A stretch of 64,000 nt of DNA from a bacterium. GTDB taxonomy: Bacteria; UBP7; UBA6624. This document shows positions 60,303 through 64,000 of the stretch, piece after piece (the first letter of the stretch is position 1; every line of letters begins with the position of its first letter). Under the pieces are notes generated by a model. That model saw only the letters and a list, made by a program, of their open reading frames with translations. It did no database searches and was not told where the DNA came from. A program made the position numbers and the translations under genes. The stretch lies in contig PBAU01000003.1 in the NCBI GenBank assembly GCA_002716355.1, positions 186,001 to 250,000 of the forward strand, written 5' to 3'.

Positions 60303-61229
60303 TCAAATTTTGTTGAATTTAAAAACTCGCAACTTTGCAGATCTGACTTGAGGCATTCTCGCTAACTCTGACTCATTAGGTTGAATCGGTTTCTTTGTAA
60401 CAATCTCTCCAAAACCCATTCTTTCCATTTTTTTATAAAAAGTCTTCACCTGTCTGTCTTCAGCACTATGCCACGTTAAAAAAACACCAATGCCACCCGC
60501 CCTGATTATTTCTAAAATTGAATTAAGCAATAGATCAAGCTCTTGTGATTCCCTGTTAACTTCTCTCCTTAAAGCCATGAAAATCTTTGTAGAAGGATGG
60601 ATTCTTTTAACGCCATTCTCAAAAAGAACTTCTGAAAGATGTTTACATGGCATTGAAGAAATATGCCTGTTTCTTACAATCTCATTTGTAATTTTTTTAT
60701 AACCCTTAATGCCACTTTCTTTGAAAATCTTATTTAATTGAGCTTCAGAGTATGAATTTAGTATTTCAGATGCTGTTAGAGTATTTTCACTTTTGTCAAA
60801 CCTCATATCAGCTTCTTCAACTCCATGAAATGACATATCTTCTCTATAAAGCTGGTCTAATCTAGCTCCAAGGTCAGCAAAAACAATATCACATTTCTTC
60901 CAACCTATTTTTTTCATAATTTTTTTTATCTGACTGTGTCTTGATTGAAAACATTGAAATTCAAACTTATTTAAACTGTCTTGTGGCGAATCTATATTTT
61001 TGAAAATTTTATTAAGTCTTTTTTGGGCTCTTTCAATTGACTCTTTATCCATGTCTAAACCAAGAACAGAACATCCACATTTCAAAAAAACTTCAGAATG
61101 CCCTCCATCCCCCAAAGTAGCATCAACAACCCTCAATGAACGTTCATTCAAGTAACCAGAATCACAAATCAAAGAATCAACAAACTGTTTAATTTCCACA
61201 GTCATTGCAGAAGGATGATAGCTAATCAT
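60303..61229 (-). CDS. rsmH: 16S rRNA (cytosine1402-N4)-methyltransferase
   Basis: 308 aa from ATG at 61229, which overlaps the stop of the PPC-domain gene; the frame is open ten codons further. YHPSAMTVEIKQFVDSL fits the N-terminus (H-x-P-V-x-x-x-E). SAM motif VVDATLGDGGHSEVFLKCG, LGLDMDKESIERAQ, IVFADLGARLDQLY (usual D-L-G-x-S-S) and GGIGVFLTWHSAEDRQVKTF (S-F/W-H-S-x-E-D-R) are present. In most bacteria rsmH follows mraZ; here it is convergent to glnN and divergent from mraZ. Confidence 0.95.
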   Translation of the reverse strand: MISYHPSAMTVEIKQFVDSLICDSGYLNERSLRVVDATLGDGGHSEVFLKCGCSVLGLDMDKESIERAQKRLNKIFKNIDSPQDSLNKFEFQCFQSRHSQIKKIMKKIGWKKCDIVFADLGARLDQLYREDMSFHGVEEADMRFDKSENTLTASEILNSYSEAQLNKIFKESGIKGYKKITNEIVRNRHISSMPCKHLSEVLFENGVKRIHPSTKIFMALRREVNRESQELDLLLNSILEIIRAGGIGVFLTWHSAEDRQVKTFYKKMERMGFGEIVTKKPIQPNESELARMPQVRSAKLRVFKFNKI

Positions 61230-61632
61230 GCCAAAGCCACAACCCTCTTTCTTGATCAAAAAATCTAACCTTCTGATTTGAAGACTTCATAACCATGAAT
61301 TCACAAACAAACACCTCGCAGCCTTTCAGGACATGCCCTCCGTAAGTTTGACCTTTTTTATCAGATAAACTTATATGAAAATGTGGAAAAATAGCATCTT
61401 CAGTATTTGAATCAGATTTTAATGATATGTTCCCCGACAAAGAAACGATTTCTAAATCCTCCTCTATAAAAATTTCTTCATATCTCTCTTTTTTTTGGTT
61501 ATACCAAGCTATATTTGCCTGTTTCAAAGCACCTATACCTAAGATCCAACATGATTTAATTTTTTTATTTTTTGCAAAATCAAGAAGAGATTCAAGAAGG
61601 TCACATCCATTTTTCAAAGAATACATTTTCAT
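61222..61632 (-). CDS. PPC/DUF296-domain protein
   Basis: 136 aa. The fold signature is LKNGCDLLESLLDFAKNKKI, then ILGIGALKQANIAWYN, EIVSLSGNISLKSDS (E-I/V-x-S-L-S-G), PHFHISLSDKKGQTYGGHVL and CEVFVCEFMV. This matches the single-domain 'plants and prokaryotes conserved' (PPC/DUF296) family. Prokaryotic members form trimers with a conserved His/zinc-like site; their role is unknown. It starts one base over the lpxK stop and ends over the rsmH start. Confidence 0.8.
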   Translation of the reverse strand: MKMYSLKNGCDLLESLLDFAKNKKIKSCWILGIGALKQANIAWYNQKKERYEEIFIEEDLEIVSLSGNISLKSDSNTEDAIFPHFHISLSDKKGQTYGGHVLKGCEVFVCEFMVMKSSNQKVRFFDQERGLWLWHD

Positions 61633-62657: not shown

Positions 62658-62687
62658 TTGACAGGGGTAATTATGACGTTATATACT
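62658..62687 (+). promoter_or_regulatory. sigma-70-type promoter of mraZ
   Basis: TTGACA at 62658-62663, an 18-base spacer, and TATACT at 62682-62687 (or TATATA at 62680-62685 with a 16-base spacer). It is the best consensus promoter seen in the window. Transcription should begin near 62694. One GTGGGT follows at 62690-62695; MraZ operators of other bacteria have repeated GTGGG boxes, so a single copy is only suggestive. Confidence 0.7.
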
Positions 62688-62708
62688 AGTGGGTGAAATT
62701 TGAAGAAA

Positions 62709-63215
62709 ATGGCAATTATTGGCACACAAATCACAATCGACAAAAATGGAAGATTTGTCGTCCCCTCTGATAAAAGAAGAATTTTTGACAATTCAAGAAA
62801 TATCGTTATCGTTCTGGATGATGCAGATGAAATAAGACGAAGAGTTTTAATTTATTCTGGAAAAAGCCATTTAACTCATTTAAATCATCTAAGAAGCCTT
62901 GCATCCAAAGGCTTTTTGACAAAATCTGGAGAAAGGTTGACAAAGGCAGAGAGCTTAAGGGTTGTTTCAATGTATGAAGAAAATGCTATTGTTAGAAGAA
63001 TAGATCCGTCTGGAAGGATGTCACTGCCTTTAGAGATTCTTGGATTAGCAGGGATTAAAGATATCGCGTACATTGGAGGAGTGCAAAGAATTGCGCTTTA
63101 TTCTCCTCCAATATGGAAACAACTTGTAGAGGAAAGAGAACATTTATTGAAATCTCTTAGCTACGAACAAAGAGTTGAATTGGCTGAAATACCTTTTGAA
63201 GGCCATGTTGAATAA
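62709..63215 (+). CDS. mraZ: MraZ transcriptional regulator
   Basis: 168 aa from ATG at 62709. An in-frame TTG at 62700 would leave only about six bases of leader after the predicted transcription start, so the ATG is preferred. Two SpoVT/AbrB-like halves carry the D-x-x-G-R motif: IGTQITIDKNGRFVVPSDKR, and VRRIDPSGRMSLPLEILGLA, followed by IAYIGGVQRIALYSPPIW. MraZ forms a ring and represses the dcw cell-division cluster. The first half has an unusual insertion (DDADEIRRRVLIYSG). Confidence 0.88.
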   Translation: MAIIGTQITIDKNGRFVVPSDKRRIFDNSRNIVIVLDDADEIRRRVLIYSGKSHLTHLNHLRSLASKGFLTKSGERLTKAESLRVVSMYEENAIVRRIDPSGRMSLPLEILGLAGIKDIAYIGGVQRIALYSPPIWKQLVEEREHLLKSLSYEQRVELAEIPFEGHVE

Positions 63216-63240
63216 AAAATTATGCTAAAAAGGAGGCATT

Positions 63241-63354
63241 ATGAACAATAACAGAAAACCAGGAACGTTAGATTTCTTTTTCGAGCTACTAGTTCCTGTA
63301 TTTTTTTTAGTAATACTAACTGGTTACTTCATTGTTTCAACACTAGTTGTTTAA
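63241..63354 (+). CDS. 37-aa single-helix membrane microprotein
   Basis: ATG at 63241, TAA at 63352-63354, with a very good AAGGAGG seven bases before the ATG. The peptide begins MNNNRKPGTLDFFFELLVPV and ends in a hydrophobic helix (FFLVILTGYFIVSTLVV). The short basic N-terminus suggests an N-in topology. It lies between mraZ and murE, where ftsL would be expected, but it has no coiled coil and is far shorter than FtsL (about 100 aa). Not recognised. Confidence 0.7.
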   Translation: MNNNRKPGTLDFFFELLVPVFFLVILTGYFIVSTLVV

Positions 63355-63459
63355 ATGGTGAAAGATATACCAAAATGGGCTGTAACAATAGCTATTAGCA
63401 CTATTGTTGCGAGCGGGATTCTTTTCCTAGCAGGGTCAATCATGGAGGCTTTAATTTAA
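63355..63459 (+). CDS. 34-aa single-helix membrane microprotein
   Basis: ATG at 63355 immediately follows the stop of the first microprotein (TAA-ATG), TAA at 63457-63459. The peptide begins MVKDIPKWAVTIAISTIVAS and ends GILFLAGSIMEALI, a single hydrophobic helix of about 20 residues. GTTGTTTAA upstream gives no Shine-Dalgarno, so translation is probably by coupling. murE starts on the next base after its stop. No family recognised. Confidence 0.65.
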   Translation: MVKDIPKWAVTIAISTIVASGILFLAGSIMEALI

Positions 63460-64000
63460 TTGAATGTAAAAGAATTAATCTCCACGATTGATTGTCTGTA
63501 TCAAGGGGATCTGGATAGTCAAATTTCAAAAATAAAAGAAGATTCCAAAAAAGTACAAAAGAAAGATATATTTATAACGCATGCGGGCATACGCGCACAC
63601 GCAATAGAAGCACAAAGAAAAGGTGCATCAACAGTACTCACTCCAATATTCTTCAAAAACCTAAAGGTAAATCAGATAATTGGAGACACAGCAAAATTGA
63701 AAAAAGACTTAATGAAAAAAGTCTACAAAGAAGCAATCAACAATATGAAAATTATTGGAATAACTGGTACAGACGGAAAAACAACAACCTCACTGCTCAC
63801 AAATAGCATCATCAATCAATCAAAAAGATCAGCCTCTATAGGCACGTTGGGGGTAAGAGGCAATGATATAGACATCAAAACACAACTCACCACTCCTCAA
63901 GCTTCTGATTTACTAAATACTTTAAATAAGCTATACCAAAAAAAATACAAATATGCAACTCTTGAATGCTCATCACATGGCTTGTTTCAAGACAGGATAG
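63460..64000 (+). CDS. murE: UDP-N-acetylmuramyl-tripeptide synthetase, N-terminal part
   Basis: TTG at 63460, open to the right edge (180 codons). The N-terminal domain has SKKVQKKDIFITHAGIRAHA (usual D-S-R-x-V-x-x-G-D-L/I-F) and AQRKGASTVL. The ATP loop is KIIGITGTDGKTTTSLLTNS. It continues SIGTLGVRGND, LTTPQASDLLNTLNKLYQKK and YATLECSSHGLFQDRI, which matches MurE (T-T-P, E-x-S-S-H). It adds the third amino acid (diaminopimelate or lysine) to the peptidoglycan stem. The substrate-specificity motif lies beyond the window. Confidence 0.93.
   Translation, partial: MNVKELISTIDCLYQGDLDSQISKIKEDSKKVQKKDIFITHAGIRAHAIEAQRKGASTVLTPIFFKNLKVNQIIGDTAKLKKDLMKKVYKEAINNMKIIGITGTDGKTTTSLLTNSIINQSKRSASIGTLGVRGNDIDIKTQLTTPQASDLLNTLNKLYQKKYKYATLECSSHGLFQDRI

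Follow-up and report, generated by a model that had tools for sequence, protein, structure and literature searches.

The dcw cluster usually reads mraZ-rsmH-ftsL-ftsI-murE, and the FtsL encoded there is normally poorly conserved and pairs with FtsB via a leucine-zipper coiled coil. In a survey of dcw clusters FtsL was assigned mainly by its position and was split into 36 orthologous groups, and gene losses, probably without any gains since the last bacterial common ancestor, were inferred (PMC8871954). The FtsL of Chlamydia, identified by its position, is with 95 aa the shortest FtsL for which we found a report, and it still carries a leucine zipper (PMC4643143).

The window analyzed here is a stretch of 64,000 nucleotides (G000:C3:186001-250000) from a 1.26 Mb MAG of the phylum UBP7 with a completeness of 86.6%, and its last part covers the beginning of such a cluster (Table 1). 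Its coordinates confirm the initial annotation, in which mraZ is followed by an ORF of 37 codons (pep1) with the motif AAGGAGG, which ends four bases ahead of the start codon, by an ORF of 34 codons (pep2) at TAAATG and by murE on the very next base, with no PBP gene ahead of murE. The statement that rsmH is encoded on the opposite strand is also borne out, as the protein matches its Pfam model. Past the start of murE the operon continues as murE-murF-mraY-murD-murC-murB-FtsZ-like-yggS-uppP-ftsK-lgt, where murE (as a partial protein), the FtsZ-like gene and ftsK were checked with profiles and the names of the other mur genes, yggS, uppP and lgt are a reading of the translations and the gene order. 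No ftsW, murG, ftsQ or ftsA was found within this murE-to-lgt stretch. Among the window proteins compared with Pfam, LpxK matches its model, and between lpxK and rsmH the minus strand encodes a PCC (PPC) domain protein (61222-61632) overlapping the start of rsmH. The PCC (PPC) family comprises DNA-binding regulators of plants and prokaryotes, and the lpxK-PPC pairing is kept in the more distant relative G002 described below.

Table 1: Features of the mraZ-murE region and rsmH in the window (positions are those of the window).
Feature	Position	Strand	Evidence and remarks
Promoter-like site TTGACA-18-TATACT	62658..62687	+	Just 5' of mraZ; consensus scan, 11/12 matches; candidate by sequence likeness alone
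mraZ, 171 aa, TTG start	62700..63215	+	Pfam MraZ PF02381, 1.1e-7; identity 93% in G001, 38% in G002
Shine-Dalgarno AAGGAGG of pep1	63230..63236	+	Read from sequence; also in G001; AAGGAG in G002
pep1, 37 aa, predicted single-helix membrane microprotein	63241..63354	+	Conserved in 3/3 UBP7 genomes; purifying selection; AlphaFold2 helix
pep2, 34 aa, predicted single-helix peptide, genus-restricted	63355..63459	+	TAA/ATG junction with pep1; 82% identity in G001; absent from G002
GGAGG, probable murE ribosome-binding site, within pep2 3' end	63444..63448	+	Read from sequence; kept in G001
murE 5' part, TTG start	63460..64000	+	Mur ligase PF08245, 8.5e-14; whole protein 475 aa, extends beyond the window
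rsmH	60303-61229 (ATG) or 60303-61259 (TTG)	-	Pfam Methyltransf_5, 2e-51; outside the cluster in the window's genus, 3' of lpxK

To compare the locus we used two relatives, G001 from the same genus as the window's genome (G000) and G002 from another genus of the same family, all other genomes being related at domain level only; the three MAGs are incomplete (86.6, 62 and 78%). A scan of GTDB contigs with the pep1 profile returned exactly two, UBP7_UBA7824 (DLTY01) and NIOZ-UU106 (JACNFQ01), and as both are UBP7-named relatives the lineage is the candidate phylum UBP7. The literature on this phylum is almost nil and we found no papers mentioning UBA7824 or NIOZ-UU106. The peptide pair reported between mraZ and murE is kept by G001, which shows the same array as the window (mraZ-pep1-pep2-murE), and G002 keeps pep1 but not pep2 in the order mraZ-rsmH-pep1-murE. 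There the genes overlap, as the ATGATG at the beginning of pep1 contains the rsmH stop and the last base of the pep1 TAG is also the first of the murE GTG. In all three genomes pep1 is located directly 5' of murE (G002) or of pep2-murE (G000 and G001). Since rsmH is in its usual place in G002 with pep1 next to it, the ftsL-ftsI slot is taken by pep1 alone, and the window's genus has merely moved its rsmH, so that the idea of the peptides standing in place of rsmH had to be dropped.

The pep1 sequence of the window (MNNNRKPGTLDFFFELLVPVFFLVILTGYFIVSTLVV) is 76% identical to that of G002, compared to 35–53% for the other cluster proteins between these genera. The codons of G000 and G002 show 21 synonymous and 9 nonsynonymous differences, with 8, 4 and 27 differences at codon positions 1, 2 and 3, and none of 20000 neutral simulations with an equal number of random changes resulted in so few amino acid changes without a stop. 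When 20 aligned protein pairs were compared in sliding windows of 37 columns, the 28 identities of pep1 were reached only by parts of FtsK, SecG, UppP and Lgt, and in MraY, MurE, SEDS and PBP2 no such window was found. Judged by these comparisons pep1 is a genuine conserved coding gene under strong purifying selection, and because it occupies the ftsL-ftsI slot and is conserved above nearly all of its neighbours, it is probably a true, so far unrecognized component of the machinery for the cell wall or for division. Microprotein families of this kind may be missed by gene callers that use length cut-offs.

The initial annotation had treated the two peptides as a pair, which holds for pep1, present in all three genomes and under purifying selection, but not for pep2 as an equally solid case. 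No pep2 was detected in G002, and between G000 and G001, where pep1 and pep2 overlap in TAATG in the latter genome, its codons show 5 synonymous and 6 nonsynonymous differences (dN/dS about 0.33). In the simulations 395 of 20000 neutral runs were equally conservative, which is a modest signal of selection, and part of the conservation at the 3' end may reflect the murE ribosome-binding site located there. Searches against Pfam, NCBIfam and PDB gave no usable match. We therefore regard pep2 as less certain than pep1 and as a genus-level addition.

According to its hydropathy pep1 has a hydrophobic core (residues 14–32) followed by five residues, with K/R only at positions 5–6, and from the positive-inside rule it is predicted to be bitopic with the N-terminus inside. 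AlphaFold2 predicts one helix for residues 7–36 (pLDDT 87), an expected result that is uninformative on a partner. Between G000 and G002 the substitutions in the helix are conservative and spread over its faces, and the predicted cytoplasmic tail of 12 residues is partly conserved. As the whole helix and not just one face is conserved, we read this as burial inside a complex.

Such conservation also bears on the idea of pep1 as a leader or arrest peptide, in which the nascent helix would regulate the translation of murE and the product itself would have no function. A short, hydrophobic peptide with strongly conserved amino acids that is translationally coupled to the next gene would suit this idea, yet the conservation extends along the whole chain instead of forming a C-terminal stall motif, pep2 stands between pep1 and murE in G000 and G001, a scan of the window gave no Rfam element, and no terminator-like site was found. 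We consider a leader peptide highly improbable.

Against Pfam, NCBIfam and PDB sequences no relative of pep1 was found, and when 386 genomes were searched with its profile, matches at E < 1e-24 were confined to the three from UBP7. The weak matches in 28 other genomes, with a best E-value of 3.7e-4, were dismissed as chance, since about 0.0004 × 386, or 0.14, matches as good as the best one are expected in such a search. This best match corresponds to helix 1 of an apparent AEC-type transporter in the domain-level genome G062 (L050 1507-2412, NVLAPVFLLVLTGYLFG), a resemblance within chance that could nevertheless hint at the origin of pep1. One-helix microproteins are common in transporter, respiratory and secretion complexes, and pep1 might be a subunit of such a complex that is unrelated to the wall and located in the dcw operon by chance. 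The transporter match would point in this direction if it were not within chance, and pep1 stays linked with rsmH or mraZ and with murE in genera that differ widely in G+C content (37% in the window, 54% in the G002 contig), making an unrelated complex very unlikely.

The closest described counterpart by position is FtsL. Both occupy the same dcw slot and are small bitopic membrane proteins, and pep1 shares with FtsL, by prediction, the short N-terminal cytoplasmic tail, the single transmembrane helix and the N-in orientation. In the position test used for FtsL, pep1 lies 3' of rsmH in G002, while the other side is undefined as ftsI is missing. However, FtsL has 95–121 aa compared to 37 aa, it carries a periplasmic coiled coil or leucine zipper, for which pep1 with its five residues past the core leaves no room (73 residues in the FtsL of genome G010), and it is poorly conserved whereas pep1 is highly conserved. 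No similarity of pep1 to models or structures of FtsL, FtsB/DivIC or FtsI was detected in Pfam, NCBIfam or PDB, and it also lacks the transpeptidase domain of FtsI (PBP3), the transpeptidases of G000 being MrdA-like and PBP1A-like. Without a coiled coil or similarity and with the opposite conservation pattern, pep1 was not filed as FtsL. Of the earlier description as reduced FtsL-like the slot and the predicted membrane helix stand, and the coiled coil, the similarity and the FtsL-style variability do not. That pep1 is a vestige of ftsL, or of the membrane segment of FtsI, which lost its periplasmic part during descent would agree with its exact location between rsmH and murE in G002, with its predicted N-in topology, with FtsL being recognized mainly by position and with a dcw history of losses and no gains (PMC8871954), but the same missing features, together with a length far below the shortest reported FtsL (PMC4643143), make it quite unlikely. 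We class pep1 as a new microprotein family which is not demonstrably FtsL.

The division and wall synthesis genes of the three genomes were compiled. Each genome has one SEDS protein, which scores nearly equally as RodA (166 bits) and FtsW (164 bits), and no second SEDS was detected in any of them. G000 and G002 each encode one class B and one class A PBP, and the single transpeptidase match in G001 scores like class A enzymes. The class B PBP fits PBP2/MrdA (363 bits, under the model cut-off of 455) and its gene is part of an mreB operon ending in secG. In this operon (L027 5638-9879) three proteins of 204, 179 and 119 aa without a Pfam match occupy the mreC/mreD positions between mreB and the PBP2 gene, with secG following the latter. 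Neither an FtsI-type PBP nor FtsA nor POTRA_1/FtsQ was found in the three genomes. A match above the cut-off of the FtsA profile in G000 was rejected as it is, by its position, the mreB of the PBP2 operon. Also rejected was a strong DivIC match on contig C12 of G000, because a second enolase, an apparent second lpxK and yggS and a G+C content of 28–30% identify this contig as contamination; C12 (L034, L045 and L046) also carries gyrase genes, and the gene matched there is an ordinary ftsB. No ftsB was found beside the native enolase in G000 or G001. The search for ftsI and ftsB, which had been proposed along with the initial annotation, hence ended with FtsI found in 0/3 genomes and FtsB only on the contaminant contig. 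FtsL and FtsB vary so strongly that failing to detect them with profiles says little about their absence. For a given gene the chance of being missed in each of the three genomes owing to incompleteness is about 0.011, so that FtsI and FtsW are likely, if not proven, to be absent.

One clear match to the tubulin family is present per UBP7 genome and it is always located at the ftsZ position, just past the window in G000 (L002 8160-9158, corresponding to G000:C3 256759-257757) and at L023 9199-10197 and L022 6422-7444 in the relatives; G002 has two additional sub-threshold matches elsewhere. The UBP7 proteins reach 56 bits against TIGR00065 with its cut-off of 295. A predicted model of low confidence (pLDDT 59) matches FtsZ folds in its GTPase half, and the profile could be aligned with solved FtsZ structures. 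Compared to the FtsZ from M. jannaschii the T7-loop N-x-D-x-x-D is changed to N-L-D-K-A-N in G000 and E-I-D-P-G-H in G002. The second aspartate of this loop, on which GTP hydrolysis depends in other FtsZs, is lost in all three proteins, which also carry GYGSGSA or GGATGSA in place of the GGGTGTG signature. By sequence, UBP7 thus has a single clear FtsZ homologue, and an extremely divergent one.

With FtsI, FtsW and FtsA apparently gone and FtsQ and FtsB not found, division has to rely on either the single SEDS-PBP2 pair or the class A PBP. We tentatively favour, at somewhat less than an even chance, that pep1 serves the remaining peptidoglycan synthase(s) as a transmembrane cofactor and stands where FtsL would. 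As an N-in bitopic helix it would pack against a multi-helix inner-membrane partner, for which the SEDS/PBP2 pair and the PBP1A-type enzyme, each the only one of its kind, are the candidates, and would be obligatory for the division synthase in a stabilizing or activating role; partner, topology and role are all inferred. In the window's genus pep2 would be a younger accessory helix translationally coupled to pep1 and murE. The suggestion of a new wall or division subunit in the initial annotation is plausible from the gene position and the conservation, with ftsL and ftsI absent from the cluster.

A role in precursor synthesis would agree just as well with the position ahead of murE. Here pep1 would either belong to MraY as a membrane subunit or anchor the soluble Mur ligases, MurE first, to the membrane beside MraY, which would suit its location immediately ahead of murE (overlapping it in G002), the continuation of the operon with murF-mraY-murD-murC-murB and the partly conserved cytoplasmic tail. 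On the other hand this tail is very short, the identities of MraY and MurE between the genera (37–41%) are far under that of pep1, and other bacteria are not known to need such a subunit, so we consider this role unlikely. Going back to the synthase cofactor, one can extend it to a scenario for the whole phylum, in which UBP7 would have kept peptidoglycan and a degenerate FtsZ, lost FtsA, FtsQLB, FtsW and FtsI and gained the ultraconserved pep1 in the dcw cluster as a replacement of FtsQLB acting on a single SEDS-PBP2 or PBP1A for both growth and division. We regard this full scenario as rather improbable. In relation to the no-gain view of the survey (PMC8871954) pep1 would represent either a gene gain in the dcw cluster or an extreme reduction of FtsL, in a phylum that seems to do without FtsW/FtsI and FtsQLB. 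It is a tiny candidate for how a bacterium with a minimal set of proteins controls the synthesis of its septal wall.

Clostridioides difficile has no functional FtsW/FtsI and uses a class A PBP for division (PMC10693644), and it resembles UBP7 in having one RodA-PBP2-type pair and a class A PBP but no FtsW/FtsI and no FtsA. In contrast to UBP7, where none of these was found and pep1 is present instead, it keeps SpoVE/SpoVD and orthologues of FtsL, FtsQ and FtsB with sporulation roles. The loss of ftsI and ftsW is tolerated by P. limnophila (PMC6952346). Partners that are essential to such enzymes can be small membrane proteins. For the cofactor itself the actinobacterial CofA (DUF3566) is the closest precedent, as it binds and stabilizes PBP1a via its transmembrane domain (PMC7205459). 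CofA has 114 aa and two helices and is encoded near gyrase genes, whereas pep1 has one helix and its partner is only proposed. Together with the cases of C. difficile and P. limnophila, this small membrane protein led us to favour a cofactor role for pep1, and the helix-helix contact of CofA with a PBP may, by analogy, serve as a model for it.
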